This document shows, piece after piece, positions 33,646 to 38,641 of a stretch of 64,000 bases of DNA. Origin of the DNA: Methanorbis furvi (lineage in GTDB: Archaea > Halobacteriota > Methanomicrobia > Methanomicrobiales > Methanocorpusculaceae). The stretch covers positions 23,546-87,545 of the forward strand of contig NZ_JAWDKA010000009.1 in the NCBI RefSeq assembly GCF_032714615.1, written 5' to 3'. The translations under genes and the position numbers were made by a program. The notes beneath the pieces were generated by a model. That model made no database searches. It was not told the origin of the DNA and was given only the letters and a program-made list of their open reading frames with translations. Position 1 is the first letter of the stretch, and every line of letters starts with the position of its first letter.

Positions 33646-34047
33646 CTATGCGCCGTGAACCCAATCGCCTTTGCGGTCGCCGGTGATCTCCTGCTTCCAG
33701 ATAGGAACTCTCTCCTTCAGCCGCTCGATGATGTAGCGCGAGCCTTCGTATGCCTCAGGACGGTGGCCGGCACCGACAATAATCACCACAATGGTCTCGC
33801 CAAGACTGAGTCTGCCGTAACGGTGGATGATGTCCACCGAGTTCAACTGAAACTTCTCTTTTGCTTCAGCAGCAATCTCTGCAAGATCCTTTTTTGCGAC
33901 CGGAACAAACGCCTCAATCTCGAGAGCATCCATGCCGTCATCACGAACGCAGCCGATAAACACAATCTGTGCACCATCCGCATGCGTCCGCGATGCGGAG
34001 ATCAGTGCACCGATATCAATATCCTCTTGTTGTACTGCAAGTACCAT
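33646..34047 (-). CDS. moaE: Molybdopterin synthase catalytic subunit
   Basis: A 133-residue MoaE, which uses the MoaD thiocarboxylate to put two sulfurs into precursor Z (cPMP), forming molybdopterin. The core motifs GAQIVFIGCVRDDG, HRYGRLSLGETIVVIIVGAGHRPEAYEGSRYIIERLKERVPIWKQE region and the terminal basic loop (WKQEITGDRKGDWVHG) with the catalytic lysine are all visible. The ATG at 34047 is preceded by GAGGATAAAG. It is the last gene of the run ycaO-tfuA-thiF/moeB-moaD-moaE, 7 nt behind moaD. Confidence 0.95.
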   Translation of the reverse strand: MVLAVQQEDIDIGALISASRTHADGAQIVFIGCVRDDGMDALEIEAFVPVAKKDLAEIAAEAKEKFQLNSVDIIHRYGRLSLGETIVVIIVGAGHRPEAYEGSRYIIERLKERVPIWKQEITGDRKGDWVHGA

Positions 34048-34054
34048 TTTTTCT

Positions 34055-34333
34055 TTATCCTCCCGAGACCGGCGGGTAAAGCACGATCTCATCACCGTCA
34101 CGTACGATGATCTCTCCTGCCTCTTCTGCATCGATGCGTTCGCGGTTGTGCATAATAATCACATGACCGCGAAGTCTGTTCTCTTCAAAAAGTTCGCCGC
34201 ATGCTGCGGGAACAGTTTGTGCGAACCTCTCAAGCGCTGCGAGAATTGTTGCGTTGGAATCTGTCGTGACGATATTTTTTTCGCCGAACAGTTCGCGAAA
34301 CTTTGCAAACGCCAGTATTGTTACTTCAGTCAT
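34055..34333 (-). CDS. moaD: MoaD/ThiS-family sulfur carrier
   Basis: A 92-residue ubiquitin-like protein ending in the required Gly-Gly (YPPVSGG), whose C-terminus is adenylated and thiocarboxylated. TEVTILAFAKFRELFGEKN and DGDEIVLYPPVSGG are the two conserved strands. The ATG at 34333 is inside the end of the E1-like gene (8-nt overlap). MoaE follows directly, so molybdopterin synthesis is the safest role, but the cluster also suggests use by the YcaO-TfuA system. Confidence 0.93.
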   Translation of the reverse strand: MTEVTILAFAKFRELFGEKNIVTTDSNATILAALERFAQTVPAACGELFEENRLRGHVIIMHNRERIDAEEAGEIIVRDGDEIVLYPPVSGG

Positions 34334-35060
34334 GGTTTTCCTCAATAGTAATTTTTTCTGAACAGACAGAACATCTCGGACTTTTCTTCACCGAGAAAAC
34401 ATCCATGCGATTCACTGCCCCGTCCCAGAGCAGGAGTTTTCCTGCGAGCGTGTCCTGGGCGCCGGTCAGGTACTTTATGGTCTCCTGCGCTTCAATGGAC
34501 CCGATAACTCCCGCGGTTGATCCAAGAATCGGTGTGCCCTTCGTGGTCTGGGCATTTGGAAATATGCAGGACAAACACGGAGTAATGCCTGGGATTATCA
34601 GTGTTGCCTGACCTGAGAGGCCTGCGACTCCTCCGTGCACAAGAGGGATTTTCGACTTTTGCGAAAACTCATTGAGCACATACCGCGCTGCAAAGTTGTC
34701 CATCGCATCAACGATGATGTCGGCATCGCCGATTAATTGCGGTGCGGTTTTCTCATCGATAAACGAGGAGAACGCGGTCACTTCAATGTCAGGGTTGAAT
34801 GCTTCAAGCGTCAGCTTTGCAGACGCTGCTTTTGGCATGCCGATCCGGTCCTGCCGGTGCAGAATCTGGCGGTTCAGATTGGTGATTTCCACCACATCGC
34901 AGTCAGCAACTCTGATGTGGCCGACGCCTGCTGCTGCAAGATAGAGTGCGACCGGTGAGCCGAGTCCTCCTGCTCCTGCGAGAAACACGGTTGCCTCGTC
35001 AAGTTTTTTCTGGCCGGCCTCACCGATGACCGGAATTTGTCGGATGTATCGCTCGTTCAT
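34326..35060 (-). CDS. ThiF/MoeB/HesA-family E1-like adenylyltransferase
   Basis: A 244-residue E1-like enzyme expected to adenylate the C-terminal glycine of the MoaD protein encoded next to it. Visible: the ATP-binding GAGGLGSPVALYLAAAGVG, VVEITNLNRQILH with the Arg finger, DNFAARYVLNEFS, and two zinc-binding pairs (CLSC near residue 165, CSVC near residue 232). It lacks a rhodanese domain, so the sulfur donor must be separate. The ATG at 35060 overlaps the tfuA stop by 4 nt, and its end overlaps moaD. MoeB and ThiF cannot be told apart by sequence alone. Confidence 0.9.
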   Translation of the reverse strand: MNERYIRQIPVIGEAGQKKLDEATVFLAGAGGLGSPVALYLAAAGVGHIRVADCDVVEITNLNRQILHRQDRIGMPKAASAKLTLEAFNPDIEVTAFSSFIDEKTAPQLIGDADIIVDAMDNFAARYVLNEFSQKSKIPLVHGGVAGLSGQATLIIPGITPCLSCIFPNAQTTKGTPILGSTAGVIGSIEAQETIKYLTGAQDTLAGKLLLWDGAVNRMDVFSVKKSPRCSVCSEKITIEENHD

Positions 35061-35695
35061 AACATATCCCTCACTGTTTTCAGGCATTCGATTGCGTCAT
35101 GGCGCTTCTGATCCACGGCGTTTGTTTTCAGCCACTGGGAAAGTGCGGACTTTGTCTCCTCTGCAACCTCTGCTTCACGGAGAATCCGCCGGTAGGTGCG
35201 GTCAGGATAGTAGAGCGCCTTGCAGGCACGAAGAAGCTCTGTCTCCTCTTCATCAGTGATAATTTTGGCCGCTTTTGCTGCGGCACAACTTGCGCGGATG
35301 TTGACCATCGGTTCAGAAAGGGCGGTCTGGGTCTCTGGGTCATAGACGAGACCAACTTCATCATCGGCATTGATTTTTCCGTCTTTATACCAGCGGTAAA
35401 TCTCGCCGACCCCGATCATTCCAAGCGTGTCCATCTCCGACGCCCGCAGTGCTCCCATCGATGACGAGCCGACCACTTTGATGCCGGACCGAAGCGCTGC
35501 AAGAATTTCGCGGTGACCTACTGCGCGATCCTGAAAGAACACGCCGTCGATTAAGACGATTGTCTTCGCCCCTGCGGCTGCCGCTGCGGTCAGGTCTCCG
35601 CGCTTTGCCGGAGGCAGATACTCTGCGTCCGGCAGAATTTTCTTCGCCTCTTCAGGCGGCAGACTTGGGCCGATGAATATGACGGCGCTCGGCAT
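35057..35695 (-). CDS. tfuA: TfuA-like protein, thioamidation partner of YcaO
   Basis: A 212-residue TfuA-like protein: AVIFIGPSLPPEEAKKILP at the start, KTIVLIDGVFF, GSSSMGALRASEMDTLGMIGVGEIYRWYKDG and DDEVGLVYD are the family blocks. In methanogens TfuA works with YcaO to convert the McrA active-site glycine amide to thioglycine, probably delivering sulfur. The start is taken as the ATG at 35695, 8 nt after AGAGGTG; an ATG at 35722 would also be in frame. The gene begins 44 nt inside the end of ycaO, so expression is tightly coupled. Confidence 0.92.
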   Translation of the reverse strand: MPSAVIFIGPSLPPEEAKKILPDAEYLPPAKRGDLTAAAAAGAKTIVLIDGVFFQDRAVGHREILAALRSGIKVVGSSSMGALRASEMDTLGMIGVGEIYRWYKDGKINADDEVGLVYDPETQTALSEPMVNIRASCAAAKAAKIITDEEETELLRACKALYYPDRTYRRILREAEVAEETKSALSQWLKTNAVDQKRHDAIECLKTVRDML

Positions 35696-36878
35696 CAGTG
35701 CACCTCTTACCTCTGCGTTCATTGTCAATCGTAAAGCACTCAAGCCCCGGCACAATCACGCGGACCACCGGAACTCCAAGGTCAGGATCGGTGAGATCAT
35801 ACACAATCACTCTCGCAAGGCCTGCGGCCTTCAGCCGTTCGATGATCGCGAGAATGTCGGTCGTAAAGTCCGGTGTTGCGCAGCCCGCAATCTCAGAGAA
35901 TTGTTTTGTAGACTCGGTCTTGAACCAGTAGGCATTCATCCGCTTCACGCGATCATAGCCCATCATTTCGCGGAACGATGCGATGGTTGCATCCTCGCGT
36001 GCTCCGTGAATCTGCGTTGCCCGGCTCTGTGCAACCTCGGAGAGTGCACGAATCACGGCAATCTCAGGATTTGTGTGGGTCCCCATTCCAATCGTCAGAA
36101 GCCGCGGATCTTTGAGGGTGACATCGTCGGAGACCGCTGCGATCGTCGGGATGCCGAGGTCTGAAGTGATGTCCTTCAGTGTGACTTCAACTCCTGCCGC
36201 CGTAAACTTTGCCAGCATCTCGGATGCATGACCGGTGAGTCCGGTTATGGCAGGTCCCGTGTCCCGCGTTGTTTCGACAAGCGACCATGAGTCGCGTTCA
36301 ATCACCTCAGTCAGGGCGTAAAAGATCGCCTCCTCGATCGTGTTGCCGGATGCAATCCCATTGGAGCTGGACCGGAAGAGTCCCGGAAGGTAGTGGGGGT
36401 TTGGATGAATCACTGCGCAGAGCGGAACTTTTACGGAACAGTTGTTTGCAATGTCCCATGCGTCCACCCAGGGCAGCTCCATGTCGGCGTCGTTCGTCCG
36501 CGGAAGAATGAGGTCTCTTGGATTGATGCAGTCCTCGGTGAGCGAGAGCATCTTGTACGAAGTTGCAGCAAGGTCGCGCGGCATGGCTTCTGCTGAGTAG
36601 CGTTCTATTCCTTCCATGATTCCTGCAACGCGTGCTTCTGCTTCGGTTCCTCCTTTTCCGTTATACACGGAGATTGCACCGTCAGCTGCCGTTGGCCGGA
36701 TACAGGAGTAGACCGGAACTCCGATCCGGTCAAGGTCGGTAATGTCTGCAACCCGCGTGATACCCGCAATCTGTACCAGCGGTTCGATGGATGCAAGCGT
36801 CTCTTCAGGAGTTTTGCTGCGTTCGGTCTGGCCGCAGTAGACTTTTGGAGACGGCTGGAGCTCTATCATTGTATTCAT
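35652..36878 (-). CDS. ycaO: YcaO-family ATP-dependent cyclodehydratase/thioamidase
   Basis: A 408-residue YcaO that activates a backbone amide with ATP, in methanogens to form the McrA thioglycine. The ATP/Mg motifs are present: ARVAGIMEGIERYSAE (about residues 80-95), EAIFYALTEVIERDSW, and ALSEVAQSRATQIHGARED (about 285-303). The substrate-specificity region IRPTAADGAISVYNGKG also fits. It starts at 36878 (or at 36869). The C-terminal tail after VRVIVPGLE is basic and overlaps tfuA by 44 nt. It is the first gene of the sulfur-transfer operon and is divergent from fdhD. Confidence 0.92.
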   Translation of the reverse strand: MNTMIELQPSPKVYCGQTERSKTPEETLASIEPLVQIAGITRVADITDLDRIGVPVYSCIRPTAADGAISVYNGKGGTEAEARVAGIMEGIERYSAEAMPRDLAATSYKMLSLTEDCINPRDLILPRTNDADMELPWVDAWDIANNCSVKVPLCAVIHPNPHYLPGLFRSSSNGIASGNTIEEAIFYALTEVIERDSWSLVETTRDTGPAITGLTGHASEMLAKFTAAGVEVTLKDITSDLGIPTIAAVSDDVTLKDPRLLTIGMGTHTNPEIAVIRALSEVAQSRATQIHGAREDATIASFREMMGYDRVKRMNAYWFKTESTKQFSEIAGCATPDFTTDILAIIERLKAAGLARVIVYDLTDPDLGVPVVRVIVPGLECFTIDNERRGKRCTDAERRHIHRPKSAA

Positions 36879-36990
36879 AATCGTTCGGGAACGCTATTGA
36901 GGATTTCGTTCAGAGCGTTCGCATGATTTTATATGTTGGCCCCGCAAACATATGAACATTCACACTGTGAAATATAATCGGGGATACTAT

Positions 36991-38493
36991 ATGCATACAA
37001 ACCTCCTTACGTCCTGCAAAGGTTACCGGTATGAGAACGGGGATGTTGCTGAGATCGATGATGCTGTGGTCAGTGAAGAGGTTATCACACTTTATCTCAA
37101 CGGGGCAGAGCATCTGAAAATTGTTGCAAGCAATGAACATCTCACCGAGTTTGGTGCAGGTTTTTTCATCGCATCAGGAGTTGCAGAAAAAATTCTCTCG
37201 GTCAGCGTCCAAGGGACGAACATTTTCGTGGACGCGGTAGTTTTGGATGCGTCTGCCGAAAAAACTGAGAGATGTGTCAGTAATGGCGGAACAATTACTC
37301 CTGATGAGATCTTTTCTCTCCGTGAAGCTTTGAATGCTGAAGCATGGCGCAAGACCGGTGGTCTGCACTGCGCGGCGTTGTGGTACAATCACTCCTGTGC
37401 GTTTGTGGCGTCCGACATCGGCAGACACAATGCGGTCGACAAGGTGATCGGATGGATGGTGCTTCAGGGGCTGTCCTCTACTCACTGTGCGATCGGCTGC
37501 ACCGGCAGACAGCCGGCAGGAATGGTTGCAAAAGCGGTGAATGCAAACATTCCAACAATCGTATCCCGTGCTGCGGTAACACTGAAAGGAGCAGAGCTCG
37601 CAAAGTCGTCAGGTGTTACGCTGATCGGTTTTGTGCGTGAAGGCAGGTTCACCGTCTACTCGCATCCCGAACGAGTTGCCGGTCTGAATCCAAAAGATGG
37701 TGAACCAAAACCTGCCAAAAGCTGTGGTACTCTTGCCTCCCCGCTTCGCGGTCTCCGCTACCGCGACGATGCGGCAGTGCCGGTTGAGGATGCAGCAGTT
37801 GCCGAGGATATCGTGACGCTGTATCTGAACGGCAGTGAGTTTATCAAAACCGTTGCAAGTCTTGAGCACCTCCCTGAGTTTGCAGTAGGATTTTTTGTGG
37901 ACGCAGGCCTTGTCTGTTCTGCTTCAGATATCAGATCAGTGATAGTAAAAGGATCATCTGTGTATGTGGACGCGGTCTGCACTGTTTGTGTTGCAGGAGA
38001 GATGGAGTCTTCTGGAGGATTTGCCCCGCACAAACCCCGCGGTCATGCCGAGGCCGGCGGCAGCATCACGGATGAAGAGATCTTCATTATTCGCGAAGCC
38101 ATCAATGCTGAGGTGTGGGATGCGACCGGCGGTCTGCACTGTGCGGTGCTGTTCCATGATCACCGCGTGGTGTTTCTTGCGTCAGATATCGGCAGACACA
38201 ACGCGGTTGACAAGGTTATCGGGTATATGATTCTGCATAACATTCCCCCAACCGAGTGTGCGATCGGCAGCACCGGCAGACAACCGGCAGGAATGGTAAC
38301 AAAAGCTGCGAACGCCGGCGTTCCGATCATTGTGTCCCGTGCCGCTGCAACGGAGAAGGGGATTAGGACCGCGCAAACCTTTGGCGTGACACTCATCTGT
38401 TTTGTCCGCCCGCCGCGGTTTACGATCTATACGCATCCGGAACGTGTTGTAGTGAAATCGGCTTTACCCATAAATTCGTTTACTGGCAACTAA
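36991..38493 (+). CDS. fdhD: Tandem-fused FdhD sulfurtransferase (two FdhD domains in one chain)
   Basis: A 500-residue protein made of two complete FdhD-like domains (about residues 1-245 and 250-490). FdhD, normally 230-280 residues, hands sulfur from a cysteine desulfurase to the Mo/W cofactor of formate dehydrogenase. Paired blocks are GLHCAALWYNH / GLHCAVLFHDH, ASDIGRHNAVDKVIG in both, GCTGRQPAGMV / GSTGRQPAGMV and FTVYSHPERV / FTIYTHPERV. The cysteine loops differ: RCVSNGG in the first domain, VCTVC then AEAGG in the second, so the two halves may have different roles. The ATG at 36991 is favoured over 36952 because a TATA box near 36929-36936 would place transcription start after the first. 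The last ten residues and stop are encoded by repeat R1-D. Confidence 0.85.
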   Translation: MHTNLLTSCKGYRYENGDVAEIDDAVVSEEVITLYLNGAEHLKIVASNEHLTEFGAGFFIASGVAEKILSVSVQGTNIFVDAVVLDASAEKTERCVSNGGTITPDEIFSLREALNAEAWRKTGGLHCAALWYNHSCAFVASDIGRHNAVDKVIGWMVLQGLSSTHCAIGCTGRQPAGMVAKAVNANIPTIVSRAAVTLKGAELAKSSGVTLIGFVREGRFTVYSHPERVAGLNPKDGEPKPAKSCGTLASPLRGLRYRDDAAVPVEDAAVAEDIVTLYLNGSEFIKTVASLEHLPEFAVGFFVDAGLVCSASDIRSVIVKGSSVYVDAVCTVCVAGEMESSGGFAPHKPRGHAEAGGSITDEEIFIIREAINAEVWDATGGLHCAVLFHDHRVVFLASDIGRHNAVDKVIGYMILHNIPPTECAIGSTGRQPAGMVTKAANAGVPIIVSRAAATEKGIRTAQTFGVTLICFVRPPRFTIYTHPERVVVKSALPINSFTGN

Positions 38494-38641
38494 TGTTCGC
38501 CGTAGCTCCGCCCACGGAAATTTCACAGAAAAACATCACGGAGCAGACGTGAACAGCACGGAATTCTAAAATTCTATTTCTGTGATGTTCACGTCTGCTC
38601 CGTGATATTTTTCCGTGTGCTCCGCTTTTCCGTGGGTGGCA
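38460..38641. repeat. Long inverted repeat, family R1, copy D, entering fdhD
   Basis: R1 element: GCTTTACCCATAAATTCGTT at the left end, then CTCCGCCCACGG, inner arms ATCACGGAGCAGACGTGAAC and its complement, and CCGTGGGTGG at right. It begins inside fdhD, supplies its stop codon at 38491-38493, and fills the gap to the convergent gene at 38685. Confidence 0.85.

Follow-up and report, generated by a model that had tools for sequence, protein, structure and literature searches.

FdhD of the Escherichia coli type is a homodimer of 230-280-residue subunits, whereas a gene of the archaeon Methanorbis furvi encodes two FdhD domains in one chain of 500 residues, and the question that this locus raises is what such a fused protein does and which of its residues do it. 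The gene lies in a 64,000-nt stretch of contig NZ_JAWDKA010000009.1 (assembly GCF_032714615.1), which as a whole is here called the window. The original prediction was of a fixed pseudodimer with unlike cysteine loops and split roles, in which one half might bind the cofactor while its partner relays sulfur. The matter bears on a dispute, as the need for the FdhD loop cysteines in equipping the cofactor of formate dehydrogenase with its sulfido ligand is judged differently in the relevant passages of two papers; in that of PMC6239281 the CXXC of FdhD is neither conserved nor essential, whereas that of PMC10609526 has Cys121 as essential in E. coli, and also remarks on an FdhD of Methanococcus maripaludis without a loop cysteine.

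In translation the forward-strand frame at 36952-38493 is open, with no stop, and gives 513 aa from an upstream ATG at 36952 or a 500-aa tandem FdhD from a start at 36991. The second start is preferred, as it is the methionine at which the nearest orthologue (P0002 of Methanorbis rubei, 87% identical to the window tandem) begins, and the tandem fdhD gene is therefore placed at 36991..38493 (+); residues are numbered throughout by the 513-aa frame. The window protein scores 366.4 bits in three stretches against Pfam FdhD-NarQ PF02634 (cut-off 27.2) and 311.8 against NCBIfam TIGR00129 (cut-off 140.9), and over 240 residues its N half and C half share 53% identity (E 1.4e-88). The frame, the profiles and the identity between the halves bear out that FdhD was duplicated and fused within a single 500-residue frame: the window tandem is a member of the FdhD/NarQ family with two complete FdhD domains in one chain. 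The N-terminal half comprises residues 14-245 (36991..37686, +) and is followed by a linker, residues 246-259 (37687..37728, +), delimited by the alignment of tandems and the secondary structure of a model, and by the C-terminal half, residues 260-501 (37729..38454, +), placed by Pfam, by the sequence match of residues 304-501 to structure 2pw9 and by the alignments. On the 3' side of the gene the window holds a palindrome (38500-38640) with 40-nt arms that are 90% complementary; it is a dispersed repeat with at least 80 matches in the genome on both strands (40 of 200 candidates scored), many of which are the two strands of one place.

A stop or frame break between the halves near residue 245, which had been named as the sign that would tell against a fusion, is absent, and a search of 5.8 billion proteins yielded at least 33 full-length tandems of 485-538 aa, that is the window protein and 32 others, which align along their whole length. 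Many come from separate assemblies, some on contigs of 1.6-1.8 Mb, that of M. labreanum being on a contig of 1.80 Mb. The ratio dN/dS (NG86) is 0.08-0.16 in each half across five genome pairs, which indicates purifying selection on both; given this, the number of tandems from separate assemblies and the absence of stops, an assembly artefact or a decaying gene is scarcely credible. One Methanocorpusculum-type tandem, P0024, is labelled as a Bacteroidales bacterium and is probably from a mis-binned contig.

All FdhD matches found in the 25 genomes of the window's genus (g1) were fetched and read. An intact tandem is present in 13 of them, a contig-edge piece matching the N half of the tandem in one (G035) and a single-domain FdhD of the tandem's class in nine, and the remaining two (G021 and G041), both incomplete genomes, have no FdhD of the tandem's class. 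The search for tandems in other Methanomicrobiales that had been proposed thus succeeded within the genus; among the order's frames of at least 394 aa in the matches listed outside the genus six were read (G011, G046, G048, G210, G213 and G215; G007, of 400 aa, and G066, of 423 aa, were left out) and each has one FdhD domain.

The origin of the tandem was sought in a tree of 123 rows that omits 21 of the 26 class-A rows bearing the label 'ord'. In it all 13 N halves fall into a single clade (100/98), as do all 13 C halves (98/89); these clades are sisters with a support of 91/79, and together with the nine single-domain proteins of the genus they make up a group with 100/100. As the halves each form one clade, and are grouped with the single-domain FdhDs of the genus, the tree fits one internal duplication; one duplication and fusion inside the genus explains it, although the low support of 91/79 allows some scope for a different sequence of events. 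A fusion of two different FdhD classes was rejected, as the tree puts both halves in the single-domain class of Methanomicrobiales for which we coin the label class B. Recent gene conversion between the halves was likewise rejected because each set of halves has a clade to itself, though the branch that joins them is the weak one. Class B is widespread in the Methanomicrobiales, with named records that include Methanoculleus, Methanolinea and Methanoregula, and by the best E-values among the matches listed it occurs in about 161 of the 232 genomes of the order at E <= 1e-75, a threshold chosen at a gap in the E-values. With most of its relatives single-domain, the fusion is not needed for function.

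The unlike loops from which split roles had been deduced were read correctly in the window tandem: the first half has RCVSNGG, with C108 (37273..37275, +), and the second has CTVC, with C343 and C346 (37978..37989, +), and lacks a cysteine before its glycine pair, reading SSGG there. In the alignment with E. coli FdhD the C-half position of the catalytic Cys121 falls on S354 of this SSGG (38011..38013, +), and C343 and C346 sit 11 and 8 residues before it. The loop of class A of the order reads GCGG, with Cys121 matched by a cysteine in 38/38 proteins aligned with E. coli FdhD, and that of class B reads SSGG, SAGG or similar, with a cysteine at that position in 0/20 aligned. None of the 13 N halves and none of the 13 C halves has one there, nor do any of them have a cysteine at either position of the E. 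coli type of loop CXXC. As a defining feature of the tandem the unlike loop cysteines could not be upheld, since they are not conserved; C108 is found in 10/33 tandems and the complete C343/C346 pair in 8/33. A conserved relay through the loop cysteines was rejected on the ground that 19/33 tandems lack every one of the three. The best 120 of 1,514 matches to single-domain class B are of the same kind, with GCGG in none, a cysteine in the Cys121 column in one, and at least one cysteine anywhere in the 45-column loop stretch in 34.

It is a different cysteine that is conserved, located in a core strand five residues before TGR and present as C179 in 33/33 and as C436 in 33/33 tandems. In the window protein C179 belongs to a CX3C in the N half (C179, C183; 37486..37500, +) and C436 to a CX3S in the C half (C436, S440; 38257..38271, +). 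The second position is variable, with C183 in 23/33 tandems and a cysteine at 440 in 17/33, so that residues 183/440 are C/C in 17, C/S in 6 and S/S in 10 of the 33; the cysteine asymmetry of the window tandem, C183 against S440, is of the C/S type and is therefore found in six tandems only. From this alignment the tandem appears to have begun to lose its second core cysteine, and as this has gone from both halves in 10/33, a CX3C redox pair is dispensable. The single-domain class-B proteins have CX3C-[TS]GR in 120/120 (the same best 120 of 1,514 matches), and 11 class-B genes from genomes of other families have the first core cysteine in 11/11 and the second in 10/11. On their conservation C179 and C436 would be the best candidates for an internal sulfur relay.

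The residues of the pocket are likewise found in both halves. Equivalents of E. coli D188, R191, H192, D196 and R219 are present in 13/13 N and 13/13 C halves, an equivalent of R262 in 92% of N halves and 100% of C halves, and the R191-equivalent also in 20/20 single-domain class-B proteins aligned; this scoring left unclassed G011_L135 (loop GCGG, degenerate pocket signature), the class-B-like G017_L096 and G019_L097, E. coli FdhD and four P rows. The presumed nucleotide-pocket signature (DxGRHN..DK, [ST]GR, FxR) is kept in both tandem halves, in the window protein with DIGRHNAVDK at residues 155-164 (37414..37443, +) of the N half and again at residues 412-421 (38185..38214, +) of the C half, and the loose DxGRHN pattern is found in 119/120 of the best class-B matches (120 of 1,514).

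An AlphaFold2 model of the tandem (pLDDT 87.7, pTM 0.88) predicts one compact protein of two packed domains. As to the comparison of both halves with solved FdhD that had been suggested, the N half of the model matches 2pw9 and 4pde in fold by structure search and the C half matches 2pw9 by sequence; below these two FdhD chains the VIA-align structure list consists of deaminase-like folds. Structure 4pde is reportedly the subject of the 2015 paper by Arnoux et al. According to PMC6239281 both subunits contribute to every nucleotide site of solved FdhD, and if the halves of the tandem pack alike both composite sites would be complete, with cross-half pockets as in solved FdhD.

Division of labour, in which one half would bind the cofactor and the other would relay sulfur through its loop cysteines, must be weighed against these observations. 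The loops of the window tandem do differ (RCVSNGG against CTVC/SSGG), and in P0035, a distantly related tandem from a metagenome, SGCAHG occurs in the N half and not in the C half; however, the three cysteines concerned are absent together from most tandems, none of them is at the Cys121 position, and the pocket signature is in both halves. Moreover, as each known site uses both subunits (PMC6239281), an arrangement in which one half binds and the other relays misfits the geometry. We regard split roles as very unlikely. What is upheld of the original prediction is the conserved tandem, predicted to be one compact protein of two domains and likely to be a fixed pseudodimer; the loop-cysteine division of labour is not supported.

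The reading that we prefer, to which we would give a probability of roughly 0.6, is that the tandem is an FdhD dimer made permanent by a covalent link, lacks a cysteine at the Cys121 position in either half, and acts as a cofactor chaperone for formate dehydrogenase. Its two pockets would be equivalent, each half doing the same job, and would carry the Mo/W bis-pterin guanine dinucleotide cofactor, which the tandem would pass to formate dehydrogenase, its presumed target. Sulfuration would then not go by a loop relay, and would most likely take place via C179/C436 beside TGR, or through a separate partner.

That an FdhD without a loop cysteine can serve formate dehydrogenase is suggested by genomes in which there is no other. 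Class B is the sole FdhD match, among the matches listed, in eight genomes of 1-2 contigs that have FdhA at E <= 1e-255 (G088, G090, G095, G105, G108, G111, G119 and G123), the class-B genes of which were read. In G038 an fdhA-like gene (381 aa) and fdhB come after a class-B gene, and in G017 and G019, of the sister genus g2, class-B-like genes lie inside fdhA-fdhB strings. Taken together, FdhA accompanied by class B alone and class-B genes beside fdhA and fdhB make it appear, from gene content and order, that FdhD without a loop cysteine is enough for formate dehydrogenase, which fits both the pertinent passage of PMC6239281 and the remark on M. maripaludis in PMC10609526. The genes inside the two fdhA-fdhB strings (L096:1261-2079 and L097:1432-2259) encode FdhD without a loop cysteine and form a separate class-B-like branch. 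It tells against this reading that G128 of the same order, which is 96% complete, has an FdhA match (E 8.2e-262) and no FdhD match among the matches listed. When the 23 of 31 class-B or class-B-like loci that could be centred are compared (L158, L161, L162, L166, L167, L169, L173 and L140 being left out), the next gene clusters with DUF1890 in 13 (e.g. L154:10835-11628) and the gene at +2 with DUF1894 in nine, one member of each cluster having been scanned against Pfam.

A target other than formate dehydrogenase, such as formylmethanofuran dehydrogenase or another molybdopterin enzyme, has in its favour three further molybdopterin-oxidoreductase frames in the genome, which at 440, 459 and 586 aa are shorter than its FdhA genes. 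By their size we take some of these frames to be FmdB/FwdB-type subunits. Such a target is nevertheless unlikely, given that class-B or class-B-like genes adjoin fdhA-like or fdhB genes in three genomes and that some genomes of the order are without class B at E <= 1e-75 among the matches listed. The neighbours of the tandem itself differ from locus to locus and indicate no single target.

In the window the tandem is indeed divergent from such an operon, as had been pointed out, its divergent neighbour (35652..36878, -) being identified by profiles as a YcaO-related McrA-glycine thioamidation protein; this arrangement does not hold throughout, YcaO being the divergent neighbour in only 7/13 tandem loci. 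A functional link between the tandem and the YcaO-TfuA-ThiF-MoaD-MoaE cluster was rejected, as the adjacency to YcaO is limited to those seven loci and is seen at 0 single-domain loci examined. The string itself (33646-36878, -) consists of MoaE, MoaD/SAMP1-like, MoeB/ThiF-like, TfuA and YcaO genes, so that an E1-like enzyme and a ubiquitin-like sulfur carrier are encoded next to the genes for the thioamidation of McrA; it is possible that this enzyme and this carrier supply the sulfur for it.

The genus contains further FdhD-like proteins, small ones which we call A' (A prime), and these allow of another explanation. There are 38 in g1, some of them contig-edge fragments, of which 37 keep the GCGG loop, and their pocket is lost: the R191-equivalent is found in 0/26 aligned and DxGRHN in 0/12 others read. 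Among the FdhD matches found in the genus there is none in which a loop cysteine and an intact pocket signature occur together. Seven more A' proteins, in g2, are also without the R191-equivalent arginine, and true class-A proteins are found in g2 in G013, G017 and G018. The genome of the window (G000) has two A' proteins, L122:1976-3849 (+) and L123:9441-10109 (-), which keep GCGG and have no DxGRHN; both are above the Pfam cut-off, and their TIGR00129 scores of 73.5 and 105 are below the cut-off of 140.9.

These A' proteins differ in their neighbours. A SufS-type cysteine desulfurase accompanies the L122 type in 12/13 loci, the contig ending at the gene in the other (L195), and no desulfurase is nearby in the 25 loci of the L123 type; in g2 the SufS type occurs at 7/7 A' loci and 3/3 class-A loci. 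In G000 the L122 gene directly follows the gene for a SufS-type desulfurase and is one gene from an fdhA fragment that is truncated where the contig ends. In the stretches fetched, neither a NifS-type nor a SufS-type desulfurase was found near the 13 tandem loci, the nine single class-B loci of g1 or the nine loci of the class-B-only genomes, and the NifS of the present genome lies away from the tandem, at G000:C8:70932-72068. A general statement that class-B loci are without a cysteine desulfurase was rejected, as it came from a SufS query only; a NifS type is found near class B in 6/8 loci of g2 and in 8/29 loci listed from the order (three of these NifS calls were scanned, all above the TIGR03402 cut-off, and the others were made by tblastn). 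Examples of a NifS type near a single-domain class-B fdhD are L085:5656-7134, L165:6514-7713 and L177:8002-9207, and there are 11 more such loci. This proximity would suit direct delivery of sulfur to class B in those genomes.

From these observations one could propose that FdhD is split in the genus, with the A' protein, which has the loop cysteine and no pocket, relaying sulfur to a cofactor held on the tandem. The near-universal GCGG of A' and its missing pocket residues agree with this, as does the presence of SufS-type desulfurases at 12/13 L122-type loci as against 0/13 tandem and 0/9 single class-B loci for either type, and the A'-desulfurase pair of G000 is but one gene from the fdhA fragment. 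The L123-type A' proteins, however, are without a nearby desulfurase in 25/25 loci, and outside the genus class B often has a NifS nearby, at the g2 and order loci counted above. Furthermore, in the eight genomes of 1-2 contigs that have FdhA, and class B as the sole FdhD match among the matches listed, class B needs no FdhD with a loop cysteine, and with the NifS neighbours of class B this means that a split between relay and holder is not generally needed. We therefore consider such a split unlikely, though less so than the other alternatives. The corresponding picture of Methanocorpusculum-type archaea, in which the relay cysteine would reside in A' and cofactor holding in the fused pseudodimer, with sulfur passing between them, is put forward with the same reserve, and the fixed dimer that serves formate dehydrogenase without a loop cysteine remains our preferred reading.

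That cysteine and pocket have been lost reciprocally in the genus is a more testable point than the tandem itself, and this loss in separate proteins would help to tell sulfuration and cofactor delivery apart. The clade as a whole is a natural experiment on the disputed cysteines, having genomes of 1-2 contigs with FdhA and, among the matches listed, only FdhD free of loop cysteines. The tandem for its part lets each pocket or core cysteine be altered singly within one chain, which a homodimer cannot. No printed description of a tandem or duplicated FdhD was found in the titles and abstract openings among the open-licence matches listed, and a text search of the open-licence literature found no paper that brings together Methanorbis, Methanocorpusculum and formate dehydrogenase.

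How the tandem relates to known FdhD systems can be set out as follows. From the solved FdhD of E. coli (4pde) and of Desulfotalea (2pw9) it differs in carrying two subunits in one chain, in having no cysteine at Cys121 or Cys124, and in the extra cysteine of its core strand, five residues ahead of TGR. Nearer to it are the group III FdhD-like chaperones of Schwanhold et al. 2018 (PMC6239281), in which, in the part of the paper devoted to them, the loop CXXC is altered or absent, as it is in the tandem; the group has archaeal members, and one of its subgroups is tied to FdhAB-type enzymes. The same part of that paper, which draws on a set of 41 sequences, describes them as FdhD and mentions no tandem. 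FdhD is also found in a longer chain in fusions with MobA-like (PF12804) or TusA (PF01206) domains, but there it is joined to another domain. Two metagenomic proteins are also FdhD tandems but do not resemble those of the archaea, P0035 with 27-30% identity to the archaeal tandems and a loop cysteine confined to its N half, and P0121, which is absent from the best 120 matches of the window protein; both are likely to be of independent origin from the archaeal tandems, and they show that FdhD can fuse elsewhere too. The closest likeness is with the parent class: class B shares with the tandem SSGG in place of the loop cysteine, DxGRHN and CX3C-TGR, and differs from it in being of one domain, of about 245 aa, and in keeping both core cysteines in all of its best 120 of 1,514 matches, where in the tandem only the first is invariant.
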